From Nonlabens tegetincola (lineage in GTDB: Bacteria > Bacteroidota > Bacteroidia > Flavobacteriales > Flavobacteriaceae): 64,000 nucleotides of DNA. The notes beneath the pieces are model-generated. The model saw only the letters and a program-made list of their open reading frames with translations, ran no database searches and was not told the origin of the DNA. Location: NCBI RefSeq assembly GCF_002954355.1, contig NZ_MQVV01000014.1:124001-188000 (forward strand), given 5' to 3'. Position 1 is the first letter of the stretch. The number at the start of each line of letters is the position of its first letter. The position numbers and the translations under genes were made by a program. This document shows, piece after piece, positions 3,868-62,819 of the stretch.

Positions 3868-5156
3868 TGAATAAATCCTTAATTCTGGTTACGTATTACT
3901 GGCCACCTGCTGGTGGTCCAGGAGTGCAGCGCTGGCTTAAATTCATAAAATATCTATCGCATTACAACTATGATATAACTGTTGTCATACCTGAGAATCC
4001 AGATTATCCTGTAGTTGATTCTTCATTGAATAGCGATGTTCAAGAAAACATATCTATTATAAAAGTTCCAATAGCGGAACCTAGTAAGTGGTTGGGTAAG
4101 CTTTCGCGAAAGCGTACTAAAAAATTACAACGTGGCATACTTGATAAGCAACCATCCTGGAAGGAAAAAATCGCTTTGTTTATAAGAGGTAATTTCTTTA
4201 TACCAGACGCAAGAATTGGTTGGAAGAATCGCGTGGTCAAGGAACTAAAAGATAGAGTCAATAATTCCAGCATTATCATTACAACAGGACCGCCGCACTC
4301 TGTTCATTTGGTTGGATTAGAACTCAAGAGGATGTTGTCACAGTTGAAGTGGATAGCAGATTTTAGGGATCCATGGACCACGATAGGTTATCACAAATCA
4401 CTACGACTTACTCGTATTGCAAGACGTAAACACGAATCCTTAGAACAAAAGGTACTGGATGCTTGTGATCATTTGTTAGTCACTAGTGAACATACTAAAC
4501 AAGAGTTTGCAACGAAAACTCACACACCTATACGAGTAATTACCAATGGATTTGATAGGGCTGTAAACTCAATGACTCAACAGCCGCCTGGTGAATTTAC
4601 CATGTCTCATATAGGGACCTTGCTTTCTGATCGTAATCCACATGTGTTATGGCAAGTTCTATTAGAATTGACTCAAGAAAACGAGTTGTTTAAATCTCAT
4701 TTCAAGCTAGTACTTGCAGGAAATGTAAGTGATGAAATATTAAAAAGTATTAAGGTTTATAACCTGGATCCTTATCTCGAAAACCATGGTTATGTTAAAC
4801 ATGATGTGGCATACAGCCTAATGAAGGCAACTCAGTTACTATTACTTATTGAAATAGATTCTAAGGACACACAAGCCATAGTACCTGGTAAGTTATTTGA
4901 ATACTTGGCTAGTAGAAGACCTATAATTGCCCTTGGACCTTCTAATGCCGAAATTAAAACTAGGGTAGAGAAGGCAAAAGCTGGTTCTTTTTTCACCTAT
5001 AATGCTAAACAAGATCTTAAAAACTATATTCTTTCTAGATTTAATGATTATTTAGAAAATAAGAATACTGGGATTGATGCAACTGATATCGAGCAGTTCC
5101 ATCGTAAGAATCTTACACATAGATTGAATCAATTGATAAATGAGGTATGGGAATAG
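3867..5156 (+). CDS. Glycosyltransferase, GT-B fold (family 4-like)
   Basis: A 429-residue cytoplasmic glycosyltransferase. The N-terminal Rossmann domain opens with YYWPPAGGPGVQRW, and DFRDPWT is seen near residue 165. The C-terminal donor-binding domain has GKLFEYLASRRPIIALGP near residue 350, the usual position of the nucleotide-sugar contact loop. It starts inside the stop codon of the YfhO gene and overlaps the flippase gene by 10 bp, so it is part of one operon. One copy of the window-wide palindrome lies in frame at 4100-4114, encoding LSRKR in a basic, probably exposed stretch. The donor and acceptor sugars are unknown. Confidence 0.85.
   Translation: MNKSLILVTYYWPPAGGPGVQRWLKFIKYLSHYNYDITVVIPENPDYPVVDSSLNSDVQENISIIKVPIAEPSKWLGKLSRKRTKKLQRGILDKQPSWKEKIALFIRGNFFIPDARIGWKNRVVKELKDRVNNSSIIITTGPPHSVHLVGLELKRMLSQLKWIADFRDPWTTIGYHKSLRLTRIARRKHESLEQKVLDACDHLLVTSEHTKQEFATKTHTPIRVITNGFDRAVNSMTQQPPGEFTMSHIGTLLSDRNPHVLWQVLLELTQENELFKSHFKLVLAGNVSDEILKSIKVYNLDPYLENHGYVKHDVAYSLMKATQLLLLIEIDSKDTQAIVPGKLFEYLASRRPIIALGPSNAEIKTRVEKAKAGSFFTYNAKQDLKNYILSRFNDYLENKNTGIDATDIEQFHRKNLTHRLNQLINEVWE
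4100..4114. repeat. Palindrome copy 1 (GCTTTCGCGAAAGCG)
   Basis: Matches the window-wide 16-mer CGCTTTCGCGAAAGCG except that the first base is A. It lies inside the glycosyltransferase gene and is read in frame as L-S-R-K-R. Confidence 0.9.
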
Positions 5157-6610
5157 TAATTAAACATAGCGCGTGGAATTTTGGCATCACAGGAGCTGGT
5201 TTTTTACTAGGAGCTGTTAATGTATTATTACTAGCCACTACTTATTTAGATGACGAATATTATGGATTATGGGGTTATGTATTATCCATGGCATTCCTGC
5301 TATTTCCACTTATGTCTTTTGGGATTCACAACACAATCGTAAAAAACTTTGCTCATTTTAAAACTAAAAAGGAGAAAGATACTTTTCTTACACAAATGCT
5401 CTTCTGGCCATTATTAATAATTATACCTTTCTTTTTTTTGCTATACTTTAATCAAGACCAAGCAAGGCTTTTCATTTCTAGAGAAAATCAGATAACGGGT
5501 GATTTTCTTTGGACGATTCCTTTAATAGCTGTTTTTCAAGGTTACTTCGAAATTTTTTATGCTTGGTCCAAAGTACATATGAAGACAATAGGTGGCAATT
5601 TCCTTAAAGAAGTTTTTTATAGGTTATCTGCTACTGTCATGCTTATTCTTGTAGCAACCCAAATCATTACGCAAGTTCAATTTATCTATAGTCTAGTTCT
5701 TATTTATGCTTTGAGAGCTTTTCTCATGAAGATTGTGGCTTATAGAATTTATTATCCAAAATGGCGTTGGGGTAAATTACTAGCTACTAAGGAACTAATT
5801 ACTTATTCCTTATTTATGATTATAGCTGGATCGGTAGGGACGGCCATGCTAGATTTAGATAAAGGAATGCTCAATCAATTTAATGAAATTGAGAATATTG
5901 CCTATTATAACGTTGCAATTTTTATAGCTGCGGTTATAGCAGTGCCTGCTCGAGGAATGGCGCAAGTTTTACATCCACTAGTTGCTAGTTATTATGCTGC
6001 TAACAACACCACAGATTTAGAGAAATTATATAAACGTAGTTCTCTTAACTTAAGCATCGTATCTGGTTTTTTGCTTTTAATAATTGTTTGTAATGTAAAT
6101 GAGTTTTACAAACTACTGGAACCTGAATTTAGTATTGCGATACCGGTAGTGTACTTGATAAGTTTGGTTAAATTTTCTGAATCACTTTTAGGAAGTAATA
6201 ATGCTATATTATACAATACTAATCTATATAGAGTGACACTTTGGATGGGTTTGTGTTTGGTACTAGTCGCCGTAGGTTTAAACATATGGCTTATTCCCAT
6301 TTATGGATTGGTAGGTGCTGCCATTGCAACATGTGTTGCCTACTTGAGTTATTCTCTTGCAAAAGTCCTTTACGTTTATCACAGACTTTACATTCATCCC
6401 TGGACACCACAAACCTGGAAATCACTACTGATAGTGATTGTTGGGGTACTTTTATTTGTGTTTTGGGATTTTAGTTTAAATGTATATCTTAACATAGCAC
6501 TTAAAAGCATTTTAATCACAGCTTATTACATACTAGCTATTTTAAAAGGTAAGGTGAGCTATGAACTTACTGGTTTATACCAAAAGTATAGAATAAAAAA
6601 AACTGCCTGA
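5147..6610 (+). CDS. Polysaccharide/oligosaccharide flippase, MOP superfamily (Wzx-like)
   Basis: A 487-residue membrane protein with about 12-14 hydrophobic helices spread over its full length and few charged loops, the usual form of Wzx/MATE-type lipid-linked oligosaccharide flippases. It overlaps the glycosyltransferase gene by 10 bp. Its stop codon lies inside the first arm of a strong terminator. The likely role is moving a lipid-linked glycan built by the upstream enzymes across the inner membrane. A teichoic-type or O-antigen substrate cannot be told apart from sequence alone. Confidence 0.8.
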   Translation: MGIVIKHSAWNFGITGAGFLLGAVNVLLLATTYLDDEYYGLWGYVLSMAFLLFPLMSFGIHNTIVKNFAHFKTKKEKDTFLTQMLFWPLLIIIPFFFLLYFNQDQARLFISRENQITGDFLWTIPLIAVFQGYFEIFYAWSKVHMKTIGGNFLKEVFYRLSATVMLILVATQIITQVQFIYSLVLIYALRAFLMKIVAYRIYYPKWRWGKLLATKELITYSLFMIIAGSVGTAMLDLDKGMLNQFNEIENIAYYNVAIFIAAVIAVPARGMAQVLHPLVASYYAANNTTDLEKLYKRSSLNLSIVSGFLLLIIVCNVNEFYKLLEPEFSIAIPVVYLISLVKFSESLLGSNNAILYNTNLYRVTLWMGLCLVLVAVGLNIWLIPIYGLVGAAIATCVAYLSYSLAKVLYVYHRLYIHPWTPQTWKSLLIVIVGVLLFVFWDFSLNVYLNIALKSILITAYYILAILKGKVSYELTGLYQKYRIKKTA

Positions 6611-6624
6611 TTGCTCAGGCAGTT
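6601..6624. terminator. Bidirectional intrinsic terminator
   Basis: Perfect 10-bp stem AACTGCCTGA / TCAGGCAGTT with loop TTGC, flanked by an A-tract on the left and T-rich DNA on the right. It sits between the convergent flippase gene and the Arg/Ser-rich protein gene and could serve both. Confidence 0.85.
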
Positions 6625-6644
6625 ACAACTTCACTATTTTTTAT

Positions 6645-7991: not shown

Positions 7992-9497
7992 CTAGTTACT
8001 TGTATTTAAACCTTCATCTCCATTCCACACCTTACGATTTGGATTGGTGTGTTTCTTTATAATTTTTTGTGAATCCAAATTGGATGCGATAGAGTTTTTG
8101 ATGCCATAAAGGATATCACTTGCACGCTTTCGCGAAAGCTTATCATCAACAATCGGTTTTGGATAAGATTCGCCTAGTTTAAATTCATAAAAAGCCTCGT
8201 CCATGAAAGTCATTTTCCAAGGTTCATGGATAAATCCAATAGGTAAATTTTTCAATTCTGGAACCCATTTTTTAATAAAGGTTGCATTTGGATCATGGTT
8301 TAAACTGTTCTTGATAGGATTGTAGATTCTAATAATATTGATGCCTGTTACTCCTGCTTGCATTTGTAATTGAGGAAAATGAATTCCAGGTTCAAAATCT
8401 AAAAAATGTTGGGCGAGATGTGGGCTCGCATTTTGCCAAGGTTGCCATAGATGAAAAACAAAAAAACTGGTAAGCATGGCTCGCAGTCTAAAATTGATAA
8501 ATCCCGTATCTATAAGACATCTCATGGCAGCATCTACCAGTGGATAGCCTGTTTGACCAGTTTTCCATGCCTTTACTAATCTTTCATCTGTTTCCTTACC
8601 TAAATTTCTATAAGCGGGATGAAGACTACGCCATTGCATTTGAAATTCCATTTCAAATTTCTGGATGAAGTGAGCCTGCCATCTTAATCTTGAAAGAAAT
8701 GAGTTAAGATTACGTAAGTCCTTAATACTATTTTTTTTACTTGCAGCAGTTTGAACTACTATACGCATACTTAGGTTACCCCAAGCTATGTATGGACTTA
8801 ACCTACTACTGTGTAATCTGCTGGTCAATGGTTTTGAATAGTTTTTATTGTAGCCTGTTATACGATCCTTTAAAAAGGAATTAAAATATTTCAAACCGGT
8901 GGTCGTTCCACCTTTTTGAATATTAGCACATTCCTTATAGGTTAAACTGAAAGTATTGAAATGGTTGCTCAATTGGGAAACACTGTCTTTATGTACTACC
9001 ATAGAATTATTAAATACAGGATGTTGTAGATCATCATTCATGTATTCAATCCATTGATCTTTCCAGGTTTTTCTATTTGATATACCTCTTATTACTCCAT
9101 TAGAGATAGATTCATTCCACCGAATACCTTTATCTTTTAATAATTTACCTACTTGTATATCTCGCTCATATGTACTGTAAATTCCAGTTTCTTGATGTGA
9201 GTAAACGGTGGTAATATTAAATAAACTAGATAGCTTATTAAAAGTTAAAATAGCATCACCTTTAATACATAATATCCTCGTATTATAGTTATAAAGGGTA
9301 CGGTTTAAATCTTCAAGACTTTGTTTTATAAAAGTAAAATGACGTTCACTGTAATGAACGTCATTCAATATTATTGGTTCCAAAATATACAGCAGTAGGG
9401 TAGGGACATCTTCTTGAAGTGCATTTTTTAAAGGCAGATGATCTTGTAAACGAAGATCCCGCTTAAACCACACGATATTAATCTTATCAAGCTTCAA
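7992..9497 (-). CDS. Cryptochrome/photolyase family protein, divergent (FAD-binding domain)
   Basis: A 501-residue member of the photolyase/cryptochrome family and the last gene of a four-gene leftward operon. The N-terminal antenna domain begins with [12 protein letters not shown]. The FAD domain contains [26 protein letters not shown] and IRIYNP. It departs from class I photolyases where they have NWQWAAG: here the sequence reads PQLQMQAG, so the Trp closest to FAD (E. coli W382) is Leu by my alignment. HNRVRM is replaced by NFRLRAM. The nearest known group is the bacterial FAD-binding cryptochrome-like proteins. It starts at TTG, 3 bp after the photolyase stop, and no in-frame ATG precedes the conserved domain. 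Repair versus light-sensing function is undetermined. Confidence 0.8.
8125..8140. repeat. Palindrome copy 2
   Basis: CGCTTTCGCGAAAGCT, one base from the 16-mer. It lies within the cryptochrome-like gene and is read on the minus strand as L-S-R-K-R, the same register as copy 1. Confidence 0.9.
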
Positions 9498-11522: not shown

Positions 11523-12035
11523 TTAATTTAATATTTGATGTTTACTTACGGATTTGTTCTCAGGTGCGGTCGTTTCTTTGAACGAACCAAAATGGTTAAT
11601 GAGTGCGCTTTCGCGAAAGCGGAATATCTCTTCAAGCTTTTTCTTTACCAATGGAGCTCCTAATTTTCCTAAAATTCCCAATGGTAATCGGTAATGTATA
11701 AGATCCTCCATCAAAATACCACCTGGTATTTCTTTAATGAAATGTACATGGTGCCAGGTAGCATATGGACCATACATTTGTTCATCAACAAAAAATTTTT
11801 TGTGCTCTACTTGAGTAATGTGCGTAACCCAATTAGTTCTATAGAAAGGAAGTGGTTTTACTGAATACTCTATAAGCTGCCCAGGATACATACCGCGATC
11901 AGTCCCGTATAGAACTTTCATTTGTAATTCTGGTGGAGTGAGTAACTTTAAATTATTGGCATCGGTAAGGAATTCCCATGCCTGATCCAAAGTTATCGGT
12001 AGTTTTTGTGTAGCGTGGTGCTGATATAATTTCAA
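11523..12035 (-). CDS. SRPBCC (START-like) ligand-binding protein
   Basis: A 170-residue protein and the first gene of the leftward photolyase operon. It fits the SRPBCC/polyketide-cyclase-like fold: an N-terminal strand, then LDQAWEFLTDANNLKLLTPPEL (split across residues 19-40) forming the helices that close the cavity, then W-rich strands (TNWVTHITQVE, YATWHHVHF). It starts at TTG; the nearby ATG at 12040 is out of frame. A TAnnTTTG promoter box lies 35 bp upstream. The ligand is unknown; the context suggests light or oxidative-damage metabolism. Confidence 0.75.
   Translation of the reverse strand: MKLYQHHATQKLPITLDQAWEFLTDANNLKLLTPPELQMKVLYGTDRGMYPGQLIEYSVKPLPFYRTNWVTHITQVEHKKFFVDEQMYGPYATWHHVHFIKEIPGGILMEDLIHYRLPLGILGKLGAPLVKKKLEEIFRFRESALINHFGSFKETTAPENKSVSKHQILN
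11606..11621. repeat. Palindrome copy 3
   Basis: Perfect CGCTTTCGCGAAAGCG near the 3' end of the SRPBCC gene, read on the minus strand as R-F-R-E-S. Confidence 0.95.
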
Positions 12036-18788: not shown

Positions 18789-18818
18789 TGTTTTATAAAA
18801 TTCTTTGATATAGTTTTG
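18788..18818 (+). promoter_or_regulatory. aceB promoter (-33 TTG, -7 TAGTTTTG)
   Basis: TTG at 18788-18790 and TAGTTTTG at 18811-18818, separated by 20 bp, match the Bacteroidota consensus TTG-N(about 19-21)-TAnnTTTG. The expected transcript start is just before the ATG at 18837, which argues against an upstream TTG start at 18816 that would lie inside the -7 box. Confidence 0.75.
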
Positions 18819-18836
18819 GAATCAAATCTACAAGAC

Positions 18837-20428
18837 ATGACAAATTTAATAGCTCAAGCTCCGGCAGTATCTTTTGATCCTCAGGTTACTAATCATTATA
18901 ATGATGTTTTAACCGATGAAGCTTTAGATTTCTTATCGGTGCTTCATCACCGATTCAATGAAAGACGTATAGAACTGCTTGATAAAAGAAAAGCCACACA
19001 GGAATATTTTAATAAAGGTAATTTTCCATCCTTTCCTCAGGAAACTTCCCACATTAGAAATTCTGACTGGAGAGCAGGAACTATTCCCAGTGATTTAAGA
19101 GATAGACGTGTGGAGATTACAGGTCCTGTGGATAGAAAAATGATTATAAATGCTCTTAATTCTGGAGCGCGCACCTTTATGGCAGATTTAGAGGACAGTA
19201 ATTCTCCTACATGGGACAACAACATGCAAGGACAACAAAATCTTAGGGATGCCAATCAAAGGACTATTTCATACACACATCCTAAAACTGGTAAATCTTA
19301 TAACCTCAATGAATGTCCCGCAGTTCTTCTTGTACGTCCGCGTGGACTGCACCTAGAGGAGCGTAATTTGATGTTTGGAGATCAGATTTCATCTGGTAGT
19401 CTTATTGATTTTGGCCTATACGTTTTTCACAATACGCAAGTGCTTCTGAAAATGGGTAGTGCACCTTATTTCTATTTACCTAAACTTGAGCATTATGAAG
19501 AGGCCACATGGTGGAATGATGTGTTCGCTTTCGCGGAAGCGTACCTAGAAGTACCACTTGGAACTTTTAAAGCTACAGTGTTGGTAGAGACTATTACGGC
19601 GAGCTTTCAATTAGATGAAATTATTTACGAATTACGTGATCATATAGTAGGATTGAATTGTGGTCGATGGGATTATATTTTTTCATATATCAAAAATTTA
19701 GAAATCATAAAGACTTTATAGTTCCAAATCGCGATCAGGTTACCATGACATCTCCATTAATGGATGCCTATTCAAAATTAGTTATTCAAAGATGTCATAA
19801 ACGAGGTATTCTAGCTATAGGTGGTATGGCTGCTCAAATTCCTATTAAGAATGATGACGAGGCAAATGCAGCTGCACTAGAAAAGGTGCGTAAGGATAAG
19901 GAACGCGAGGTTAAAAACGGTCATGATGGTACCTGGGTTGCACATCCTGCGCTAGTACAAATAGCAATGGATGAGTTTGATAAGCACATGCCTAAGGAAA
20001 ATCAATTAGATCGCCTACTTGAAGACCTTACGATAAATGAAGCAGACTTAGTTGAGTTGCCTAAAGGATCAGTAACAGAAAAAGGAGTGCGTAAAAACAT
20101 CAATGTAGGTATTCTATATACTGAGGCATGGTTGAGAGGTCACGGCGCAGTAGCACTTTATAATCTAATGGAAGATGCTGCAACTGCCGAAATTTCAAGG
20201 ACACAATTGTGGCAATGGCTTAAAAATGAAGTTCGATTAGATGATCATCGTGTTTTAAATAAAACATTGTATACCGAGCTTTTTGGTGATGAGGTAAATA
20301 AACTCAAAGAGATATTCAGTAAAATACCGAATAACCGATTAGATAAAGCAATCGAAATTTATACACAGCTGGTGGAGAATCCAGATTTTGAAGAGTTTTT
20401 GACTTTACCAGCATATCAATTTATATAA
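18837..20428 (+). CDS. aceB: Malate synthase A, interrupted by an apparent one-base deletion
   Basis: Joins acetyl-CoA and glyoxylate to malate in the glyoxylate shunt. The N-terminal part has GPVDRKMIINALNSGA, ADLEDSNSPTWDN and VRPRGLHLEERN. The C-terminal part has QVTMTSPLMDAYSKLV, HKRGILAIGGMAAQIP and NGHDGTWVAHP. The two parts are in different frames. Reading IFSYIK then breaks into NLEIIKTL and a stop at 19721; adding one base in the A5/T3 run at 19692-19699 restores the family sequence (K-F-R-N-H-K-D-F). The total length, about 530 residues, is normal for form A. Probably a sequencing error, otherwise a pseudogene. It carries a one-mismatch copy of the palindrome. First gene of aceB-aceA. 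Confidence 0.88.
19526..19541. repeat. Palindrome copy 4 (one mismatch)
   Basis: CGCTTTCGCGGAAGCG, one base from the consensus and so no longer a perfect palindrome. It lies in aceB and is read as A-F-A-E-A. Confidence 0.75.
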
Positions 20429-25335: not shown

Positions 25336-26237
25336 AATTGGAAAACCTTGCCATCTAGAGCAAGCTCACTATTCTTAAAAACAGTTTGAGCCTCTTCTTT
25401 AAACAAATTGTAGTCACCATATCTTGATGAATAATGTCCCAGTATAAGGGTTCCTACATTTGCTTTGAGAGCTATAGTTGCAGCTTCTTCGGCGGTAGAG
25501 TGTTTTGTTTTGTCACATAAATGAGCATGAGATTTTAAAAAAGTACTCTCATGGTATAAGGCTGTTACTCCTTGTATTTGTGGAACAATATCTTCTTTAT
25601 AAACTGTATCACTGCAAAAAGCATAGCTCTTTGGCTCATCACCATCAGTAGTAAGTTCAACATTAGGTATCACCTCACCATTATCAAGCACAAAATCAAA
25701 ACCTTGTTTTATCTTTCGATAATAAGCTTGATCGATACCATAGCTTTCACAGGCTGCGACATCTAATTTTCTATCGCCTGGTTTTTCTTGAAATAAGAAT
25801 CCTTGCGTAAAAACTCTATGATCTAGTGGTATGGTGTGTATAGCTAGTTGGTCATCTTCGTATAGTAAAGTTTCTTTGTTTTCTACGCTTTCGCGAAAGC
25901 GTAAATCAAAACTAGTATACACCTTAGCAAGTCGCAATTGTAGTAGAATAAGTTCCTTAATTCCTTTAGGTCCATAAATCGTCAAATCAGACTCGCGCCC
26001 TAAAAGACAAAATGTAGAAATTAAACCTATAAGACCGTAGACATGATCACCATGCAAATGAGAGATAAAAATGTGCTTAATACGAGCAAACTTTATTCGG
26101 TTTTTACGCAAGGCCATTTGAGTTCCTTCTCCACAATCGATTAAAAAAAGATGGCCTCGTAATTCCAATACTTGTGCAGTAGGTCGTGCGTTATCTCTAG
26201 GTGTAGCGCTGTGACATCCTAAAATGGTAAGTTTCAT
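25332..26237 (-). CDS. rnz: Ribonuclease Z (tRNA 3'-processing endonuclease)
   Basis: A 301-residue metallo-beta-lactamase-fold nuclease that trims tRNA 3' trailers. The zinc motif HLHGDH is at residues 60-65, and DCGEGTQ (34-40) and the later GHYSSRYGD are as in RNase Z. ATG at 26237 (KLTILGCHSATPRDNARPTA) is preferred over an in-frame start 33 bp upstream, because a TAnnTTTG box lies at 26254-26261, inside the longer version. Copy 5 of the palindrome is in frame at 25886, giving R-F-R-E-S in a region that is variable among relatives. It is convergent with the LOR gene. Confidence 0.93.
   Translation of the reverse strand: MKLTILGCHSATPRDNARPTAQVLELRGHLFLIDCGEGTQMALRKNRIKFARIKHIFISHLHGDHVYGLIGLISTFCLLGRESDLTIYGPKGIKELILLQLRLAKVYTSFDLRFRESVENKETLLYEDDQLAIHTIPLDHRVFTQGFLFQEKPGDRKLDVAACESYGIDQAYYRKIKQGFDFVLDNGEVIPNVELTTDGDEPKSYAFCSDTVYKEDIVPQIQGVTALYHESTFLKSHAHLCDKTKHSTAEEAATIALKANVGTLILGHYSSRYGDYNLFKEEAQTVFKNSELALDGKVFQF
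25886..25901. repeat. Palindrome copy 5
   Basis: Perfect CGCTTTCGCGAAAGCG inside rnz, extended to a 20-bp palindrome by TA on each side. Read on the minus strand as R-F-R-E-S. Confidence 0.95.
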
Positions 26238-26253
26238 ATCTAATAGTGTAGGG

Positions 26254-26261
26254 CAAAGGTA
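26254..26261 (-). promoter_or_regulatory. rnz -7 box
   Basis: The minus strand reads TACCTTTG, an exact TAnnTTTG match, 17 bp before the chosen ATG of rnz. Confidence 0.6.
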
Positions 26262-26341
26262 TGAAAGCACAATAAGTTAAATATAAAATCCTTCTTAATA
26301 GTTAAATATCAATAAGTGTGCGTAATAGTAATTTAAAACAC

Positions 26342-28318: not shown

Positions 28319-30286
28319 CTATTTTACTATGTGTTTAATAGTGCTGGTGTTTCCTTGGGTAGATGTGATTTTTAAATAATAAACTCCAGCTTGTAAGTTA
28401 TGATTAATAGTAGAATTGTTGTCTACAGTTTTATTTTGTATCCATCTTCCAGTACCATCATAAATAGCAACTTCCTTAATAGGTGTAGTAGTTTGAATTA
28501 GGAAACTATTTTGTGATGGATTAGGATAAATAATGTACTCATTAAAACTGACCTCATCCTCGCTCAATAAATACGTTTGACCAGATTGATTACCCCATAT
28601 GTATTCAACTAGATCGGGTAAATCTATAAACGGATTACGATTGAATTGCCAGTTGTAGACTATGTTATTTCTGTTCATTTCAAAATCATCTGGTGGATCA
28701 TTACGATGCCACTGCAGTAAAGTTGCAAGATCGCCTATTTGACCACTGGTAGAATTACTAGGATTTCCATTTACTACGTCTAACCCATTATAACGTAGCG
28801 TCATGTAGAAAATGGCTCTAGCTACATCACCATGCCAACTGCCTTGTGAACCGCTAGGACCATCATATTCAGGATAGTCTTTATTACCACGTTGACTGTT
28901 CTCTGGTCCGTCTGTAGCTCTTAAATGGTGAGCGTCGCTTTGACCATGTCTTAAACTGTCCGCATTAGTAGGAGTCCAGGCAGACATACCGTCGATGGTC
29001 TCATCATACTCAATTTCAAAAAAGCCGCCTCTAGATCTTGGGTAAATATGTTCTCTATTCCACCTACCTACATTACTACTTCCTGTTTGAAACAAAATAT
29101 CACTGCGATCCTCTTCAGAATATAGTAACCACACTTTATTAGAATTAAGTGGAGAAACATCCGCTTGTTTTAAAATTTCTATGGTGTCATCGTAAGTGTG
29201 AATACGTACGGTATTCTCATCTGCGATTAAATTAGTAATAGCTGTTTCAAGAGTGTTTCCTGATAAATTATTTAAACTATCATAATAATTTGAAGGTGCG
29301 GTGCTATTAACTATACCATATGTAGGTTGAAGTGGTGTACCGTAATTTGCTATTTGAAAATCATTGTCAACTATCAATACAGTTTCATTATCCTTCAACC
29401 TTTTGAAACCTACAGGCAGACTATTTTGAATATTAATACGCATGAATTCATCACCTTCATCAACAACATCATCTATTATGGTAAAACTTTCTGTTATAGA
29501 AGTTACACCAGGCGCAAAGGTTACTTGTGTAACTCCTGTATAATCGCTGGTATCAAAACCTGCGTTATTTAAACTATAATTAAGAGTAAATGAGGTACTC
29601 GATGCTTGAGTAAGAGTAAAAGTGATATCAACAGACGAACCTTCATCGACAGATGCACTACTAGTGGTATAACTTACACCAGTATAACTAGGTGTGGTCG
29701 TATCATTAAGGGAATGAGGTGTGCTAGTTTTTACTTCAAAGGTTCCATCGGCTTTACGTTGAATAGATTCTGACAGCTTATTACCATTCTCATTTTCATT
29801 ATACTGCACGGTTTCACCCAGTAAATTAAGTAAATTCTGATTAAGAGCATCATCTGTTTCATAAACTAATGCGTCTATCAAATTGGTCTGATTGGCAAAA
29901 GTACGATCTGGCCAATCCGTGTCATCACCAAGATAAATAGCCACTGCATCAGCTCCATTTTGTATGTTTGATTCTGCTAGTAATCTATCTGGAACTGGTG
30001 ATACTTGAGAACTACCTAGAACTATTAATCCATTGTTGTCGGTAGTTAATCCATCTAGATCAACGGTATAATAACTTCTTCCTTGACCGCTAGAGGTGCT
30101 AGTACTTCCGTTAAAAAACACCAATACATAACCATTTAATGATTGAAATGGATTGTCTGTTTTAAGCTCCACAAACTCCATGTTATCTGTGCCTGGAGTA
30201 TCTGTATCAAGTTCATTGATAACTACTTGTGAGTACGCTTTCGCGAAAGCGAAACAAAACACAAACAGTGTGTATATATATTTCAT
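28319..30286 (-). CDS. Secreted endonuclease I with lamin-tail, Calx-beta and T9SS sorting domains
   Basis: About 655 residues, multidomain. A signal peptide ends at AYSQ. Next come a lamin-tail-like domain (VVINELDTDTPGTDNMEFVEL), a Calx-beta-like domain (about 205-310, SASVDEGSSVDITFTL), and an endonuclease I domain (about 330-565) with WNREHIYPRSRGG, SDAHHLRATDG and NSQRGNKDYPEY, the His-metal nuclease pattern. It ends in a T9SS type A domain (about 580-655, YIIYPNPSQNSF to YYLKI). ATG at 30286 (KYIYTLFVF) begins the signal peptide. The signal peptide itself contains palindrome copy 6 (A-F-A-K-A). Probably degrades extracellular DNA or RNA for nutrients. Confidence 0.88.
   Translation of the reverse strand: MKYIYTLFVFCFAFAKAYSQVVINELDTDTPGTDNMEFVELKTDNPFQSLNGYVLVFFNGSTSTSSGQGRSYYTVDLDGLTTDNNGLIVLGSSQVSPVPDRLLAESNIQNGADAVAIYLGDDTDWPDRTFANQTNLIDALVYETDDALNQNLLNLLGETVQYNENENGNKLSESIQRKADGTFEVKTSTPHSLNDTTTPSYTGVSYTTSSASVDEGSSVDITFTLTQASSTSFTLNYSLNNAGFDTSDYTGVTQVTFAPGVTSITESFTIIDDVVDEGDEFMRINIQNSLPVGFKRLKDNETVLIVDNDFQIANYGTPLQPTYGIVNSTAPSNYYDSLNNLSGNTLETAITNLIADENTVRIHTYDDTIEILKQADVSPLNSNKVWLLYSEEDRSDILFQTGSSNVGRWNREHIYPRSRGGFFEIEYDETIDGMSAWTPTNADSLRHGQSDAHHLRATDGPENSQRGNKDYPEYDGPSGSQGSWHGDVARAIFYMTLRYNGLDVVNGNPSNSTSGQIGDLATLLQWHRNDPPDDFEMNRNNIVYNWQFNRNPFIDLPDLVEYIWGNQSGQTYLLSEDEVSFNEYIIYPNPSQNSFLIQTTTPIKEVAIYDGTGRWIQNKTVDNNSTINHNLQAGVYYLKITSTQGNTSTIKHIVK
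30236..30251. repeat. Palindrome copy 6
   Basis: Perfect CGCTTTCGCGAAAGCG. It encodes A-F-A-K-A in the signal peptide of the secreted endonuclease, right at the predicted cleavage region. Confidence 0.95.
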
Positions 30287-30304
30287 AAAGAGGGAATTAT
30301 GCTG

Positions 30305-41287: not shown

Positions 41288-41749
41288 CTATTTTACTAAT
41301 TGTATAATGGGTTCTGTTTTTTGATTAACATGTTTAACAGGTGCCAGTTTACTTTTTCCTTTATTAAATTTCTCACTGACTAATTTCAGTGCATCCATTG
41401 TTGCAGCATAGGCTTCTTCTGGAGATTCGTAAGTTCCTAAATCTGCTTTTTGATTATAAGAATAAAACCCAGCGCCAACTGCTATTAGAAATGAGAATCC
41501 TGCGGCGATTGCTAGACCTTTCCAATTAGAAAAGCCTGTTTCATTACTAGTGGAATGTGCTGGTATCGCTTTCGCGAAAGCGTCAAATTCAATATCCTCT
41601 TCTACAGCATCATCTTCAAAAGTTTTGAACATGGCAGAATACATTTTGTGTTCTGGAGCTATATCATTTGAATTGAAATAGTCTCTCAATTGCTGCTCCT
41701 CGGTTAAAGAGGTATTGCCTTCCCAATATTTTTGTAATAATTCATTCAT
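41288..41749 (-). CDS. Small membrane protein, probable anti-sigma factor
   Basis: A 153-residue protein: an N-terminal cytoplasmic part of about 75 residues (LLQKYWEGNTSLTEEQQLRDYF, the start often seen in Bacteroidota anti-sigma partners), one transmembrane helix (about residues 82-100, GLAIAAGFSFLIAVGAGFY), and a short periplasmic tail. It overlaps the sigma gene by 4 bp. Position and layout suggest it holds the sigma factor at the membrane. Palindrome copy 7 lies in frame as A-F-A-K-A in the cytoplasmic part. Confidence 0.72.
   Translation of the reverse strand: MNELLQKYWEGNTSLTEEQQLRDYFNSNDIAPEHKMYSAMFKTFEDDAVEEDIEFDAFAKAIPAHSTSNETGFSNWKGLAIAAGFSFLIAVGAGFYSYNQKADLGTYESPEEAYAATMDALKLVSEKFNKGKSKLAPVKHVNQKTEPIIQLVK
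41567..41582. repeat. Palindrome copy 7
   Basis: Perfect CGCTTTCGCGAAAGCG inside the anti-sigma-like gene, read on the minus strand as A-F-A-K-A. Confidence 0.95.
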
Positions 41750-45254: not shown

Positions 45255-48200
45255 ATGAAACGTATTCTTTTATTTTGCTTTTTGGCATCGGTTATGATTA
45301 CCAATGCACAAGAAGTAAACCTTGATTTATTCAAAGATTTAAAACCTAGAAATATTGGCCCAGGTGGAATGTCTGGTCGTGTAACATCCATTGATGTTGT
45401 TGAAAATCAACCTGAAATAATTTATGCAGGTACCGCTAGCGGTGGCTTATGGAAAAGTGAAAACGGTGGTGTAGCCTGGAATCCTATATTCGATAATGAA
45501 AAAACAGCCTCCATAGGAGCTGTTGCTGTACAACAAAGCAATCCTAGTGTAATATGGGTAGGTACTGGTGAAGGTAATCCTCGTAATAGTTTGAACGGTG
45601 GTTATGGTATTTACAAATCATTAGATGGTGGTAAAAGCTGGACTTGTATGGGACTTGAAAAAACTCGCCACATCCATCGTGTGATCATAGATCCCACAAA
45701 TCCAGATGTTGTATATGCAGCTGCGATAGGTTCACCTTGGGGTGTTCATAAGGAGCGAGGAGTTTATAAAACTACCGATGGTGGTAAAAATTGGGAAAAA
45801 GTTTTATTTACCAATGAGTCATCTGGTGCTGCAGATTTAGTAATGGATCCTACTAATCCTAATAAACTAATTGCTGCTATGTGGGAACACAAAAGAGATC
45901 CGTGGTTTTTTAAATCTGGTGGATCTGGTTCAGGCTTGTACATCACACATGACGCTGGAAAAAATTGGAAAAAGATAACCGAAAAAGATGGATTGCCTAA
46001 AGGCGACTTGGGTAGAATCGGTGTCGCTATAGCTCCTAGTGAACCTAATATAGTATATGCACTAGTTGAATCTAAAAAGAATGCTTTGTACAAGTCTACT
46101 GATGGAGGATTTAACTGGAAAAAAATAAATGATAAAAGCGATATAGGGAATAGACCTTTTTACTATTCTGAGATTTATGTAGATCCACAAAATGAGAATA
46201 GAGTATATTCTATTTTCACTTACGTAAACGTATCTGAAGATGGTGGAAAAAACTTTACCCAATTAATGCCAGCTTACGGTGCAAACAATGGCGTTCATCC
46301 CGATCATCACGCTTGGTATATTCATCCAAAAAATGGAAAATTTATGCTTGATGGGAATGATGGTGGACTTAATATCACTTATGATAGAGGTAAAACATGG
46401 AGATTTATTGGTAATTTACCAGTAGCGCAATTTTACCATATTAATGTAGATAATGAATTCCCTTATAACGTATATGGAGGAATGCAAGATAACGGTAGCT
46501 GGCGTGGTCCAGCATATGTTTGGAGAGCTCAGGGAATTCGTAATAGTTATTGGCAGGAAATTAGTTTTGGTGATGGATTTGACGTTGTTCCAGATCCTGA
46601 TAACAATCAATTCGGTTATAGTATGAGTCAACAAGGTTTTGTAAGTCGTTACGACTGGAAAACTGGAAATAATTACAGTGTAAGACCTACTCATCCTGAT
46701 CCAGACGTTCAATTGAGATTCAATTGGAATGCAGCCATTAATATTGATCCATTTGATAGCAAAACTTTATATTTCGGAAGCCAATTTGTACACAAATCAA
46801 CCGATAAAGGCTTGACCTGGAAGGTAATATCTCCCGATCTTACCACAAACGATCCAGAGAAACAAAAACAATCTGAATCAGGTGGTTTAACAATGGATGC
46901 AACAGGTGCCGAAAATCACACAACCATTTTAGTAATCGAACCTAGTGATGTTGAAAAGGATGTCCTTTATGTAGGAACAGATGATGGTCGAGTACACGTT
47001 ACTAAAAATGGAGGAGATAGTTGGACTGATATTTCAAAAGGACTAAAAGGTTTACCACAAGGTAGCTGGATTGCACAAATCAAAGCAAGTAAATCTAAAA
47101 AAGGACACGCCTTACTTATTGCAAACGATTACCGTCGTTTTAATTACGAGCCATACGCATACCGTACTACAAATTATGGTAAAAGCTGGGAACGTATTGT
47201 TGATAAAGACGATGTAGTAAGCTATACTTTAAGCATCATAGAGCATCCTGAAGAAAATAATTTGATGTTCCTTGGTACAGACGATGGTCTTTATGTGAGT
47301 TTTGATGCTGGTGAAAACTGGCAAAAATACACACATGGTTTCCCAACAGTTTCGGTTAAGGATATGGTAATCCATCCTCGAGAAAATGATTTGGTAATAG
47401 GAACCTTTGGTAGAGCAGCTTGGGTTTTAGATGATTTAGCTCCATTTATCGCTTTCGCGAAAGCGAACTCACAATCAAACATAGCTCTATTTGAACCACC
47501 AGTTGCTTATATGGCAAGATTTCAACAGCCTACTGGTAGTAGATTTGGTGCAGATGCGATGTTCCATGGAGAGAATAGAGATACTGGCGGTAGGTTTAAA
47601 TACTACTTTAAAAAGGATCCAACCGTAGCAAAGGATTCCACAAAAACAGACTCCTTAATGCTTAAAATTTACAGAGGTGAAGAACTTATACGCACCTTGA
47701 AAAGAAAAGCTCCAAAAGAAGAAGGTATTTATTCATGGAGATGGAATCTTACAGAAAAAGGAGTTAATAGACCTTCAAAATCAGTAAGAAAGAGTACGAG
47801 AGAACCATCAGGATTAAGAGTTTTGCCAGGAGACTACAAGGCGCAACTAGTCTATAATGACGTTATAAGTACAACCATGATAAAAGTCCAAGACGATCCT
47901 AGAATTACTGAATATACAGATGTTCATGCCAAGGAAAAGTATGATGCTCTAAAAAAACTCGAACAATTAACGGTTAAAATTTCTGAGGTTACCGATAAAT
48001 TGGCAGAGAATATTGAGAAAGCCAGCAACTTTAAATCCTATTTATCAAAATTAGATAAGGAGTCTTATAAGAACGAAATTGAGGCAACTGAGAAAATGGT
48101 AGATACATTGAAGAAGGAGCAAGAAAAATACTTTGGTAAGGTAGATAAACGCCAAGGAATTACTAGGAATCCCGAAATTACTGTTCTTAATAGACTGTAT

Positions 48201-51154: not shown

Positions 51155-51536
51155 GTATAAATATTTAGGGTTAACATTTGAGCTCTGAATATAGGGATAA
51201 ACTAATTATTTTATCAAAAAATTAACTATTCATAGCATAATATATATTTTTTTTATGTAAACCTAAGAATATGATAAATATGGGTTAGTAGGTCGATAAA
51301 CTGTATATGAAAAACTTAATAGACTTAATAACAGCTCGATAAGATTAGTGGTGTTAACAAAGTAATTTTAACTTCGGTTACATTTAGTCTCCTTCTACCG
51401 ATAATAATGGGTTTAATTATTGTAAAAGATTTTTATTCACAATAAAAGATAAAACTCTGTTAATTAATTACGCTTTCGCGAAAGCGTAATAAGCATTACA
51501 ATTAGTATATTTCAAGCTACTACAGATAGATGGGAT
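51155..51536. other. 382-bp intergenic region upstream of parE
   Basis: No gene is seen. It carries palindrome copy 9 (51467-51490) and, 16 bp after it, TATATTTC (51506-51513), one base from the -7 consensus and 24 bp before the parE ATG. The left half is AT-rich and likely holds the leftward promoter of the M43 protease gene, but no exact TAnnTTTG box was found there. Confidence 0.5.
51467..51490. repeat. Palindrome copy 9, extended to 24 bp
   Basis: CGCTTTCGCGAAAGCG (51471-51486) flanked by ATTA and TAAT, giving a perfect 24-bp palindrome. It lies between genes, in the parE promoter region. Confidence 0.95.
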
Positions 51537-53390
51537 ATGGCAGAAAACGTACAATATACTGAGGATAATATCAGGTCATTAGACTGGAAGGAACACATAA
51601 GAATGCGTCCTGGGATGTATATCGGTAAACTGGGTGATGGATCTAGTGCCGACGATGGAATCTACATCCTACTGAAAGAAGTTATTGACAACTCGATTGA
51701 TGAGTATGTGATGGGTGCAGGAAAAACTATCGAGGTGTCCATTCAAGGTGAACGTGTTATCGTACGTGATTATGGACGTGGGATCCCACTAGGAAAAGTG
51801 GTTGATGTTGTCTCAAAAATGAACACTGGTGGAAAATACGATAGTAAAGCCTTTAAAAAATCTGTAGGATTAAACGGTGTAGGTACTAAGGCCGTGAACG
51901 CTCTTTCCACTTATTTTAGAGTAGAATCTACACGTGATGGGAAAAGTGCAAGTGCCGAGTTTGAAAGAGGTGAACTTACCGACAAGGATTTTCTTGAAGA
52001 GACATCAAGACGTCGAGGTACCAAAATGACATTTGTTCCCGATGGTGAAATCTTTAAAAATTTTAAATTTAGGCCTGAGTATGTCTCTCGCATGCTTAAG
52101 AACTACGTGTACTTAAATCCAGGTTTAACCATTATCTACAACGGAGAAAAATATTTTTCTGAACATGGTCTAAAGGATTTATTAAGTGAAAAAATTACCG
52201 AATCCGATAGGCTGTATCCAATAATACACTTGCGAGGTGATGATATTGAGGTGGCTATTACTCACAGTAAAACACAGTACAGTGAAGAGTATCATTCCTT
52301 TGCAAACGGTCAAAATACCACCCAAGGTGGAACGCATCAAGCTGCTTTTAGAGAGAGTGTAGTAAAAACGGTGCGTGAGTTTTATGGAAAAAACTATGAT
52401 GCGAGCGATGTTAGAAAATCCATTGTAAGCGCTGTGGCTATTAAGGTGATGGATCCTGTTTTTGAATCTCAAACTAAAACTAAATTGGGTTCTACAGAAA
52501 TGGGTGGAGACTTACCAACTGTAAGAACTTTCATTAACGATTTTATTAAAACATATCTAGATAATTACCTACACAAGCATCCAGAAACTGCTGACGCTCT
52601 TCAAAAGAAAATTATACAAGCAGAAAGAGAACGCAAGGAGCTTTCTGGTATTCGTAAGCTAGCTAGGGATAGAGCCAAAAAAGCTAGTTTGCACAATAAA
52701 AAACTAAGGGATTGTAGAGTACATCTAGGAGATACTAAAAAAGAGAACAATCTAGATAGTACTTTATTTATAACGGAAGGAGATTCTGCAAGTGGATCTA
52801 TAACAAAATCACGTAACGTAAACACACAAGCGGTATTCTCATTACGCGGGAAACCATTGAATTCCTATAACATGAGCAAAAAAATTGTTTATGAAAACGA
52901 AGAGTTCAACTTGCTACAAGCTGCTCTCAATATTGAGGATAGTATGGAGGATTTGCGTTACAACAAGATTGTCATTGCAACTGATGCCGACGTGGATGGT
53001 ATGCATATACGTTTGTTATTGATTACTTTTTTCCTGCAATTTTTTCCTGAATTAATTAAAAAGGGGCACTTGTATATTTTACAAACACCCTTATTTAGAG
53101 TTCGTAACAAAAAAGAAACAAGGTATTGTTATACACCAGAAGAACGAGCTGCCGCACTTATGGAATTAGGTAAAAATCCAGAAATAACTCGATTTAAAGG
53201 ATTAGGTGAAATCAGTCCAGATGAGTTTGTTCATTTCATTGGCGAGGACATGCGATTGGATCCAGTGATGTTGGACGATGGTATGAGTATCGATGATTTA
53301 TTGAAGTTCTATATGGGTAAAAACACTCCAGATCGTCAAGAATTTATTATTGACAATCTTAAGGTAGAAATGGATGTGATAGAGGAGTAG
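51537..53390 (+). CDS. parE: DNA topoisomerase IV subunit B
   Basis: A 617-residue GHKL ATPase subunit that, with ParC, unlinks replicated chromosomes. [12 protein letters not shown] and [13 protein letters not shown] belong to the ATP-binding domain, [14 protein letters not shown] to the ATP lid. [10 protein letters not shown] and [12 protein letters not shown] are the TOPRIM metal-binding motifs. The length (about 620, without the extra insertion of E. coli-type GyrB) and the pairing with a ParC-like gene favour topoisomerase IV over gyrase. One base separates it from the GldL-like small gene. Confidence 0.93.
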
Positions 53391-53690: not shown

Positions 53691-56374
53691 ATGAGCGAAG
53701 AACACGAAGAACTAGAGCATTTAAACAGTAGCGATCAAGAACAGCATTCTACTGAAACTATAACCAGAGTTACAGGAATGTACAAGGAGTGGTTTCTTGA
53801 TTATGCAAGCTACGTGATATTGGAACGCGCTGTACCAGCGATAGAGGATGGTTTTAAACCAGTACAGCGACGTATCATGCAATCGATGAAGGATTTAGAC
53901 GATGGTAGGTACAACAAAGTAGCCAATATTGTAGGACATTGTATGCAGTACCATCCTCATGGTGATGCCAGTATAGGTGATGCTATGGTGCAAATTGGTC
54001 AAAAGGATCTTCTTATAGATATGCAAGGTAACTGGGGTAATATTTTAACTGGTGATCCTGCAGCAGCTTCTCGTTATATTGAAGCTAGACTCTCAAAATT
54101 TGCTCTTGAGGTATTGTATAATCCTAAAATTACGGAATGGCAATCTAGCTATGATGGTAGGAGAAAAGAACCTATAAATTTACCAGTAAAATTTCCATTA
54201 TTACTTGCACAAGGCGCTGAAGGTATTGCGGTAGGTTTGAGCACCAAAGTATTACCTCACAATTTTAATGAGCTCATTGATGCTAGTATCAAGCATTTAC
54301 AAGGAAAAAGATTTAAAATTTATCCTGACTTTCCAACAGGCGGCGAGGCAGATATTTCAAATTATAACGATGGTTTAAGAGGCGGTAAAGTGAGAGTGCG
54401 TGCCAAGATGCACTCGCCTGAAAAAAACACCATCGTAATTACAGAGATACCATACTCAACAACTACAAGTTCCCTTATTGATTCTATTTTAAAGGCAAAT
54501 GAAAAGGGAAAATTAAAATTAAACGTATAGAAGACAACACTGCTGCACAAGTAGAAATCGTCGTTCATTTGCCTAGTGGTTTATCACCAGATAAAACCAT
54601 GGATGCTCTTTATGCCTTTACAAATTGTGAGGTAAGTATTTCACCATTAGGCTGTGTAATTGAGGATAATAAACCACTATTTATTGGTGTTTCTGAGATG
54701 TTGCGTCGTAGTGCAGATCATACTGTTCAATTACTTAAGTCAGAACTTGAGATATTATTGCATGAGGTTGAAGAACAATGGCACTTTGCTTCTCTAGAAA
54801 GAATATTTATTGAAAATAGAATTTATAGAGATATAGAAGAGGAAGAAACTTGGGAAGGAGTAATTAGTGCAATCGATAAAGGACTTAAACCACATATTAA
54901 GCACCTGAAGCGTGCAATAACCGAAGAGGATATTGTTAGGTTAACTGAAATTAGAATCAAGAGAATTTCAAAATTTGATATTGATAAAGCACAACAAAAG
55001 ATTCAAGCTCTAGAAGATCGCATTGCAGAACTTAAACATCATCTAGAACATTTAATTGAATTTGCCATAGATTATTTTACTAAACTCAAGAAGGATTATG
55101 GTCAAGGTAGAGAACGCAAGACTGAGCTGAAAAACTTTGAGGATATAGTAGCAAGTAAAGTAGTTATTAGAAACACAAAACTATATGTTAATAGGGAAGA
55201 AGGTTTTATAGGTACAGCTCTTAAACGAGATGAGTATGTATGTGATTGTGCAGATATTGATGACATCATAGTATTTACAAAAGATGGTACGATGATGGTG
55301 ACAAAGGTGGATTCCAAAACCTTTATAGGAAAAAACATAATCCATGTCGCTGTATTTAAGAAAAAAGACAAACGTACCATTTACAACGTTATCTATAAGG
55401 ATGGTAAGTCAGGACCTAGTTATATAAAAAGATTTGCTGTGACTAGTGTGACACGAGATAGGGCTTACCCTATGGGTAAATCAGATAAAGGTTCTGTAGT
55501 TCATTATTTCAGTGCAAATCCTAATGGTGAAGCTGAAGTTGTTACAGTAAACTTAAGACAGCAAGGCAGTATTAAAAAGCTTAAATGGGATATAGATTTT
55601 AGTGAAATCCTCATTAAAGGAAGAGCATCTAAAGGAAATCTCGTAACGAAGTATAACATTAAGAAGGTTGAGCTTAAAGAAGAAGGTGTAAGTACACTTA
55701 AACCTAGAAAAATTTGGTTTGATGATACAGTACAGCGTCTTAATGTAGACGGTCGTGGTGAATTACTAGGTGAATTTAAGGGAGAAGATCGTTTACTTAT
55801 TATCAATCAAAAAGGTATCGCAAAGACTATTATTCCTGAGGTAACTGCTAGATTTGATGATGATATGGTAGTCCTTGAAAAATGGGAGCCTAAAAAACCT
55901 ATCAGTGTTATCTATTATCACGGTGAGAAGGAATTATTTTATATCAAAAGGTTTTTTATAGAAAACCCAGAACGAGAAGAAGGTTTTATTCCAGATGTAC
56001 AAGGATCCTATCTCGAGGTTATATCTACTGATTATCGCCCTATGGCAGAGCTGGTTTTTAATAAACCTAGAGGTAAAGAACAGCCGCCTAATGAAGAGGT
56101 TAATATTGAGGAATTTATCGCTGTAAAAGGCATAGGTGCTCAGGGTAATATGCTTACTAAATCCAAAGTGAAACAAATTAACTTATTAGATGCGTTACCA
56201 TATGAGGTACAGGAGGAAAATGAAAGTGAAAATGATGAAATAACCACCTCAAAAGAACATCTTGAAACGTCACAACAAACTGATGCTAAAGATGAACCTA
56301 CGACCAATAAGTCTGAAGATAGTAATCTTCCAGAACCACCGGTGGATGATACGGGACAAAGTAGTCTGTTTTAA
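53691..56374 (+). CDS. parC: DNA topoisomerase IV subunit A, interrupted by an apparent one-base deletion
   Basis: The DNA-cleaving subunit. EDGFKPVQRRIMQSMKDLDDGR and HPHGDASIGDAMV are canonical, and Tyr129 in AASRYIEARLS is the active-site residue. The first frame stops at 54530 after EKGKLKLNV, and the second carries the rest (from about IEDNTAAQVEIVVHLPSG to the C-terminal beta-pinwheel and acidic tail). Adding one A to the AAAA run at 54515-54518 joins them as KGKLKIKRIEDNTAA. Total about 894 residues, fitting Bacteroidota ParC. Because the enzyme is essential, sequencing error is far likelier than inactivation. Confidence 0.9.
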
Positions 56375-56375
56375 A

Positions 56376-56397
56376 TTACGCTTTCGCGAAAGCGTAA
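56376..56397. repeat. Palindrome copy 10, extended to 22 bp
   Basis: CGCTTTCGCGAAAGCG (56379-56394) flanked by TTA and TAA. It begins 2 bp after the parC stop, between convergent genes, and could fold as a terminator hairpin. Its 22 bp are identical to the centre of copy 9. Confidence 0.95.
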
Positions 56398-62062: not shown

Positions 62063-62593
62063 TTATTTTATTTTTCTTTTCATCATATTACCAATTAGGA
62101 TAGGTTTAGAAACTTCTTCGGCGTCCTCACAGTAATCAATATCTAAAGAAGTATCCATGATAAAATCACCACTAAAACTTTGGTTAAATTCAATCGTTTT
62201 ATTGTCGGGAGCGCCTTGTTCAAAAACGATTACCATTTTATACTTATCATCTTCGTTTATAATTTGAGCATCGGTAACGTATCCTATATCATTAGCAATG
62301 GTATGAAACGTACCACTTACTAAAGTTACAGTTTCATCGTTGGTCCCACTAGGTTCCCAGGTAAAATCTGCTTTTACGATAGGAGCATTTTCTTTTGAGG
62401 CAAGAATTACATTTTCATCTTCGTAATAAAAGTCTACCGTTATAGCAGGATCGATAGTGTAATTGCATTCCATTGATGCTGCTTTCTTCTCAATTGTGGT
62501 TTCCATTTCCTGCATATTTTCTGGCTTTTTTTCTTCTTTACAGGCGGTCATTAAAGTTGCAACGGCGATTAATGCAAGTGAAATTCTTTTCAT
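62063..62593 (-). CDS. Lipoprotein of unknown function, first gene of the two-component operon
   Basis: A 176-residue protein. The signal MKRISLALIAVATLMTAC carries a lipobox ending at Cys18. The mature part is acidic at first (KEEKKPENMQEMETTIEKK) and then beta-rich (VDFYYEDENVIL, VKADFTWEPSG, VTLVSGTFHTIAND). I do not recognise the family; a YceI-like barrel was considered but not supported. It sits 7 bp before the histidine kinase gene, so it may be a sensor accessory or an output of the system. Confidence 0.65.
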   Translation of the reverse strand: MKRISLALIAVATLMTACKEEKKPENMQEMETTIEKKAASMECNYTIDPAITVDFYYEDENVILASKENAPIVKADFTWEPSGTNDETVTLVSGTFHTIANDIGYVTDAQIINEDDKYKMVIVFEQGAPDNKTIEFNQSFSGDFIMDTSLDIDYCEDAEEVSKPILIGNMMKRKIK

Positions 62594-62647
62594 AATTAAT
62601 TGGTTTATAGAATGAGTAAATTAAGTTAAATGGCTAGCATTATTCAA

Positions 62648-62663
62648 TACCCTTTATGGGGTA
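62648..62663. promoter_or_regulatory. NarL-like 7-2-7 inverted heptamer site, B
   Basis: TACCCTT-TA-TGGGGTA, 55 bp upstream of the lipoprotein start. It has the same TACCC-N6-GGGTA dyad as site A; each heptamer differs from TACYYMT by one base. Probably autoregulation of the two-component operon. Confidence 0.5.
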
Positions 62664-62795
62664 CGTCTAGCTATGTAAATGTAAAAATTCTTTACAATAT
62701 GAATATTCCTACAACTAGCAGTCGTCTCAAATGGATTACAGATTATTCAACTTAATTAAATAATTGATAATTAATTATTTGAAGGTGAGATGGTG

Positions 62796-62819
62796 TTTTC
62801 GCTTTCGCGAAAGCGAAAA
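62796..62819. repeat. Palindrome copy 11, extended to 24 bp
   Basis: CGCTTTCGCGAAAGCG (62800-62815) flanked by TTTT and AAAA. It lies 25 bp after the stop of the LpxH-like gene and, with those tracts, could act as a terminator in either direction. Confidence 0.95.

Follow-up and report, generated by a model that had tools for sequence, protein, structure and literature searches.

The window analysed here, a 64,000-nucleotide stretch of the Nonlabens tegetincola genome (C14:124001-188000 of a 3,028,293-bp assembly), contains repeated copies of a 16-bp palindrome, CGCTTTCGCGAAAGCG, referred to below as the motif. A scan allowing up to three mismatches identified 11 sites, eight perfect and three with one mismatch, whereas dinucleotide-shuffled versions of the window contained a mean of 0.03. 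As shown in Table 1, eight sites lie inside open reading frames (ORFs) and three between them; the G+C content, measured in 4-kb steps, was 0.32-0.37. These results bear out an earlier note on this DNA, which had reported eleven copies with the same division into perfect and altered and into genic and intergenic, and a near-zero recurrence by chance. Its coordinates also agreed, apart from that of the first site, whose start is 4099 and not 4100.

Table 1. Motif copies in the window, their surroundings, and the state of the orthologous site where compared
Feature	Position	Location	Orthologous site
Motif copy, 1 mismatch (AGCTTTCGCGAAAGCG)	4099..4114	In ORF 3867-5156 (+), glycosyltransferase-like (weak match)	Exact motif at orthologous codons in G006
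Motif copy, 1 mismatch (CGCTTTCGCGAAAGCT)	8125..8140	In ORF 7992-9497 (-), photolyase family	Exact motif at orthologous codons in G006
Perfect copy	11606..11621	In ORF 11523-12035 (-), polyketide cyclase/lipid transport-like (weak match)	Exact at orthologous codons in G006
Motif copy, 1 mismatch (CGCTTTCGCGGAAGCG)	19526..19541	In malate synthase ORF 18816-19721 (+)	
Perfect copy	25886..25901	In tRNase Z-like gene 25332-26270 (-)	See text
Perfect copy	30236..30251	In ORF 28319-30307 (-), Endonuclease I with type IX secretion tail	Exact at orthologous codons in G012
Perfect copy	41567..41582	In ORF 41288-41749 (-), no Pfam match	Not kept in G017 (6 mismatches)
Perfect copy	47450..47465	In ORF 45255-48386 (+), sortilin/BNR repeat protein	0-1 mismatch at orthologous position in G017, G008 and G006
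Perfect copy	51471..51486	Intergenic, upstream of type II topoisomerase B subunit (51537-53390, +)	
Perfect copy	56379..56394	Intergenic, directly past ORF 54569-56374 (+; topoisomerase A-subunit domain)	
Perfect copy	62800..62815	Intergenic, between ORF 62063-62593 (-) and phosphoesterase ORF 62844-63698 (-)	

The malate synthase gene of the window (18816-20428) is divided into two overlapping ORFs in different frames, covering TIM-barrel positions 1-126 and 123-247. The split lies close to a run of T at about 19677, pointing to a frameshift or a sequencing error.

Copies are by no means confined to the window. The genome as a whole contained 644 sites at up to three mismatches and 600 at up to one, against 37 and 0 for the reversed-pattern control; as with DNA uptake sequences (DUS) and uptake signal sequences (USS), a short sequence recurs genome-wide much more often than expected. 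Each of the 22 other Nonlabens genomes likewise held 362-897 sites at up to one mismatch. Among 13 genomes from other genera of the family, 12 had none and one had eight, all on one contig, and no site at up to one mismatch was found in 23 of 23 genomes from other families of the order. A family-wide sample of 397 genomes, four of them Nonlabens, yielded at least one site in 90; the only rich genomes outside Nonlabens were G262 (879 sites) and G246 (377), the remainder having 0-27. Twelve genomes reached through individual loci were counted at up to two mismatches (reversed controls 0-6): a Dokdonia metagenome-assembled genome held 1010 sites, four Nonlabens-type genomes 658-776, two Leeuwenhoekiella genomes 29 and 61, and the other five 0-17. 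In a phylum sample of 395 genomes, in which the motif-rich genomes were represented by a single Nonlabens genome, the exact 14-mer core was present in 22 genomes, 577 times in G000 and no more than six times in any other. Some of the small counts outside the rich genomes come from single copies with one mismatch that recur, perhaps by coincidence. The original observation of a dispersed palindrome was correct and understated; the restriction to a few genera was not visible from the window alone.

The word itself is sharply defined. In 400 kb of contig C10, 67 perfect sites were accompanied by 19, 5, 1, and 1 sites with one, two, three, and four mismatches. By inspection of these sites, many of the deviant bases fell at outer positions and others at inner ones. 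The consensus extends to about TTA-CGCTTTCGCGAAAGCG-TAA, i.e., roughly 22 bp with a perfect 16-bp dyad core. Among 86 sites (offsets 0-based, counted from the motif start), T occurred at -2 in 70 and at -3 in 61, and A at -1 in 45, at +17 in 63 and at +18 in 57; the flank pattern of G262 was similar. The earlier note had made no mention of these flanks. Because the flanks are T-rich before and A-rich after the palindrome, the layout is the reverse of that of a terminator, in which a T-run follows a GC hairpin on the same strand, and most copies lie inside ORFs; an intrinsic terminator was rejected on these grounds, no terminator scan being made. RNA folding of the bare 16-mer was unexceptional (z -0.79). 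Good folding, as is usual for palindromes, was seen for a consensus with flanks assembled by hand (z -4.37) and for the interrupted form described below (z -4.06).

The earlier note had described the copies as unclustered, which holds but understates the matter, since they are spaced too regularly for chance. At up to one mismatch, the coefficient of variation (CV) of the gaps in the window was 0.40, a value matched by 0.18% of 10,000 random placements. In the 400 kb of C10, the mean gap at the same threshold was 4647 bp with a CV of 0.43, whereas 10,000 random placements gave a mean CV of 0.99 and never fell below 0.69; at up to two mismatches the gaps ranged from 845 to 9251 bp. Similarly, 440 kb of G262, which belongs to another rich genus, gave a CV of 0.59 at up to two mismatches versus 0.99 at random. 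In both the window's genome and G262, then, the copies avoid one another. A simulation in which a site was useful only if no other lay on the same 5-kb stretch produced means of 4.0-5.6 kb and CVs of 0.38-0.42, roughly matching the observed mean, CV and range. The simulated CV was alike for every reach tried, and it is the mean that fixes the reach.

In other Nonlabens, CVs of 0.39-1.16 were obtained for seven blocks of 90-200 kb, four of which were clearly regular (0.39-0.67). In five blocks examined, five motif-free gaps of 17-36 kb were found, of which four had a G+C content of 0.32-0.33 and were covered to only 0-22% in the sister species; gaps of 10-13 kb were covered to 10-71%. DNA that did not align to the sister was motif-poor in G008, G012, and G017, and several unshared AT-rich islands appear to be free of the motif. 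Over the 3.19-Mb contig of G004, 20 sampled stretches of 20 kb contained 2-7 sites in every one with no evident regional bias; on this sampling, a site limited to the origin or terminus of replication was rejected.

Site positions also appear to be inherited within the genus, judging from comparisons between species that are related and hence not independent. In five of five sister comparisons, exact sites were conserved beyond random 16-mers, 82-96% of them (22-24 sites per comparison) being fully identical versus 16-50%. Seven directed comparisons between species 87-90% identical at a test locus covered 231 sites at up to one mismatch; 61 were unaligned and left out, and of the 170 aligned sites, again not independent, a single one was lost (5 mismatches), the others lying within two mismatches of the motif. 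A pair at 96% identity kept 30/31 and 31/32 aligned sites, with one site in each direction interrupted by a 21-bp insert and 17 and 5 unaligned. Toward the more distant G006, an alignment was obtained for only 3 of 59 sites. With clade A as query and clade B as target, 31 of 70 queries could be aligned, and 27 were kept at up to two mismatches, some at about 50% local amino-acid identity; the remainder comprised three interrupted-like sites (two gapped, one read as 7 mismatches) and one lost (8 mismatches). Aligned sites were kept in 14 of 20 cases from clade B to clade A, in 4 of 5 from clade A to the window's genome, and in 2 of 2 from each clade to G006, while in the set of tRNase Z loci 0 of 2 were kept from clade A and 4 of 6 from clade B. 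A protein-level comparison for the window's genome (78 queries) kept 9 of 12 aligned site-group pairs. Between G262 and Nonlabens, 8 of 70 sites could be aligned and one of the eight was shared; in this small sample, both genera use the same word but seem to have placed it mostly at different positions.

The tRNase Z-like gene of the window allows a site to be compared with its empty counterpart. The alignment used 22 of 80 loci, the nearest being eight at 84-69% protein identity (seven Nonlabens and one BBFL7). The motif, which encodes RFRES, was exact in the window and in seven of eight other Nonlabens loci, and was lacking in N. antarcticus (LYFTEL; L030) and in 14 aligned outgroup loci (forms such as LYFHEL). 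All 16 bases were the same in eight Nonlabens sequences (the window and L023-L029), although local DNA identity was 64-79%. In 14 of 14 outgroup loci there was no alignment gap at the site, and three amino acids were changed. At this site, then, gaining the motif came at the cost of amino acids, and its silent positions have stayed fixed. A second site with one fixed mismatch was common to L023, L026, L028, and L030; L027 had six mismatches. Where an empty site can be compared, copies arose via base substitution at constant length and not by insertion. The same 16 bases recur in all reading frames and between genes, which shows that the constraint acts at the DNA level; coding sites (81/102) were somewhat below the 90% expected from 2,000 random positions.

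A dispersed inserted palindrome, such as a repetitive extragenic palindrome, a miniature inverted-repeat transposable element or a Rickettsia-type palindromic element, is most improbable. It could explain a palindrome within ORFs, and the motif of some species is itself the insertion site of another palindrome, 21 bp long. However, the outgroup tRNase Z sequences have no gap, the sole two gapped cases in the species comparison are that 21-bp insert, and the spacing is even; the candidate was rejected. The 21-bp palindrome (CCTGCCTGCCGGACAGGCAGG and variants) sits inside the motif after its tenth base, as seen in blocks of G004 and G008 (L236-L255) and in G022, and resembles a small mobile repeat with the motif as its target. 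One interrupted G008 site was intact in G004 and one G004 site was intact in G008. The interrupted pattern, counted at up to one mismatch, occurred 43 times in G004, 42 in G008, 16 in G022 and 1-3 times in five other genomes.

The likening of the motif in the earlier note to HIP1 of cyanobacteria (GCGATCGC), as a dispersed DNA-level palindrome in varied contexts, was right in kind; both are highly iterated and group-specific. The motif is twice as long and, by the HIP1 density of about 1 per kb given in part of Elhai's paper (PMC4390886), about a fifth as dense, its spacing of about 5 kb being five times that of HIP1. The HIP1 model set out in that part of the paper and the methylatable core of the motif would support a by-product origin, in which methylation of TCGCGA biases mismatch repair and the palindrome grows outwards. 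We consider this very unlikely. Outside the motif, TCGCGA occurred 137 times versus 147 expected and TTCGCGAA 4 times versus 2.4, so the core is not enriched and there is no ladder of intermediates. Moreover, the C5 methyltransferase family PF00145 was missing from 9 of 23 Nonlabens and PF01555 from 11, and G007, G008, and G010, at 99% completeness, had neither, yet contained 601-803 sites. For these two families, the ones searched, the suggested orphan-methyltransferase target found no support and was rejected, as was growth of the palindrome from TCGCGA.

The motif was also found in viral DNA. Exact copies were present in 41 stretches from 30 IMG/VR contigs; these contigs were picked for holding the motif, and their density is biased upward. 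Contig 3300040781_000495 carried six exact copies and one near copy in 27.9 kb. Among 20 proteins scanned from three motif-bearing contigs, 15 matched phage families (portal, terminase, head, connector, tail or baseplate). A pair of related phages with about 60% identity had an exact copy in common at one alignment position (L206 8198), and another site of L223 was absent from L206. P12024S and P12024L, which are recorded as phages of Nonlabens, had zero sites at up to three mismatches in 71 kb. A blastn search of the 41 viral stretches against sampled Nonlabens and G262 DNA gave no match at 1e-10, so the hosts of the motif-bearing phages were not identified.

These phage sites, together with the spacing of about 5 kb, could reflect a self-recognition mark, kept by the chromosome and by some phages, at which a nuclease, or a complex for repair or defence, would spare the DNA or change its course, as RecBCD does at Chi. 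Chi shares with the motif a similar density and the idea of marking self DNA. However, it is 8 bp long, non-palindromic, oriented and read on a single strand, unlike a 16-bp palindrome of double-stranded DNA; the two Nonlabens phages lack the motif, and the motif-bearing phages lack assigned hosts. We regard this explanation as unlikely.

The suggestion of a parS- or Noc-type site was not upheld. ParB_N was present in 23 of 23 Nonlabens, with a single match in 20 and more in three, and canonical parS, an exact copy of which occurs in at least 16 Nonlabens genomes, is separate from the motif. A different, non-ParB, dimeric nucleoid or segregation protein might nevertheless anchor, loop or mark the chromosome every 5 kb or so, with selection keeping at least one site per few kilobases. 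The dyad symmetry with TTA/TAA flanks, the even spacing, the conservation and the lack of evident regional bias along the G004 contig are consistent with such a chromosome-organising site, and parS, Noc (NBS), matS, and SlmA sites are likewise 12-16-bp palindromes scattered on the chromosome. Those sites number from about ten to some seventy and are regional, in contrast to the hundreds of chromosome-wide copies of the motif. Motif-free gaps of 17-36 kb are tolerated, most genomes have no second ParB, and the conserved sites in phage genomes are not obviously explained. An architectural role is a serious but doubtful possibility. As a separate observation, extra ParB-type frames of 602-616 aa were present in G033 near its motif cluster (C18:76088) and in the Nonlabens genomes G015, G018, and G019, suggesting a shared plasmid or integrative element.

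Taken together, the evidence implies a trans-acting reader of double-stranded DNA that is common to a few genera and for which one site per about 5 kb suffices. We tentatively favour, at somewhat below an even chance, the view that the motif is a genome-wide recognition sequence read by a DNA uptake and recombination apparatus that Nonlabens has in common with a few further Flavobacteriaceae. Motif-bearing fragments would be taken up or recombined preferentially, and molecular drive, as proposed for DUS/USS in Neisseria and Haemophilus, would spread and maintain the motif up to about one copy per incoming fragment (about 5 kb). Of the biased repair or gene conversion suggested in the earlier note, only this DUS-type drive survives, with the same reservation. 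Like the motif, DUS/USS are short fixed sequences that occur about once per 1-5 kb, both within genes and outside them; they are conserved, spaced non-randomly and common to related taxa, and their scarcity in recently acquired DNA may hold for the motif too. Passages of PMC2397512 describe Neisseria DUS as conserved, absent from recently acquired genes and spaced in relation to the size of conversion fragments, and many of them as arising with too many changes for point mutation. Within the family, part of PMC7965970 reports that Riemerella columbina prefers its own DNA in transformation, no uptake sequence being established there, and PMC8459023 proposes a novel uptake machinery for Riemerella, in which no pilus homologues were found. 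ComEC, the only transformation gene searched, was present in 23 of 23 Nonlabens and in 54 of 59 genomes in all.

Several results weigh against an uptake signal. ComEC was nearly as common in relatives without the motif, and no receptor for the motif was found. Perfect dyad symmetry over 16-22 bp is the usual mark of a dimeric DNA-binding protein and suits a cytoplasmic one; an uptake receptor would have to bind as a dimer, unlike those of known DUS/USS. The motif is a perfect 16-bp palindrome with a consensus of about 22 bp in Bacteroidota, whereas passages of PMC1939737 give the uptake sequences of Pasteurellaceae and Neisseriaceae as non-palindromic. The same passages judge them less evenly spaced than a role in compaction would need, and the motif is even. 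Regularity is not universal: blocks of G004 and G012 were weakly regular (CV 0.81-0.82), and a 200-kb block of G008 was not regular (CV 1.16) because of its long motif-free gaps. The fifth long gap (19.5 kb, in G008) had a G+C content of 0.37 and a sister coverage of 48%. DNA unaligned to the sister was not motif-poor in G004 (2.05 vs 2.84 sites per 10 kb) or G003 (2.53 vs 2.30), perhaps partly due to counterparts outside the blocks compared. Finally, site flanks were as divergent as random positions, whereas the passages of PMC2397512 describe DUS-proximal regions of Neisseria as slightly more divergent. We prefer the uptake apparatus to a chromosome-organising protein as the reader, although the evidence does not decide between them. 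In broader terms, the motif may belong to an undescribed chromosome-wide addressing system of Flavobacteriaceae, in which a dimeric protein reads a palindrome of about 22 bp every 5 kb or so, some phages keep it as well, and the lattice is written by multi-base conversion and not by stepwise mutation; this is conceivable, with the balance of probability leaning against it.

No description of the motif was found in a literature search on Nonlabens, Flavobacteria/Dokdonia or Flavobacteriaceae uptake sequences, from which subscription papers were mostly absent; a string search returned no 16-, 14- or 12-mer of it and only a 10-mer. Likewise, this search found nothing on sequence-specific DNA uptake or natural transformation in Nonlabens. 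The motif is an unusually clear short word imposed genome-wide against protein constraint, in a phylum for which our searches returned no account of such a word. As an uptake signal, it would give Flavobacteriaceae a DUS system, and we know of no earlier palindromic one; as an architectural site, it would far exceed in density any set of anchor sites known to us. Either way, it offers a ready bait for the reader protein, and it could perhaps serve as a watermark for tracing DNA moved between these bacteria.

An analogous repeated palindrome was sought in 71 non-Nonlabens loci, L100 being left out (about 9-21 kb each), and only isolated pairs or one triple of 10-14-mers were found, the amount of DNA being too small to exclude one. 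In the Dokdonia genome, three motif copies with 0-2 mismatches lay within about 330 bp (L100 11320-11650), unlike the even spacing in Nonlabens, and two of them had near-identical flanks. Four motif-poor genomes from different genera (loci L148, L149, L151, and L152) shared an island, 77-94% identical, with two motif copies 933 bp apart, both at 0-1 mismatch in all four; two other L149 sites were not kept among the genomes sharing it. In L149 the island carries genes of the heavy-metal efflux, P-type ATPase and multicopper oxidase types, and its source may have been a genome rich in the motif.

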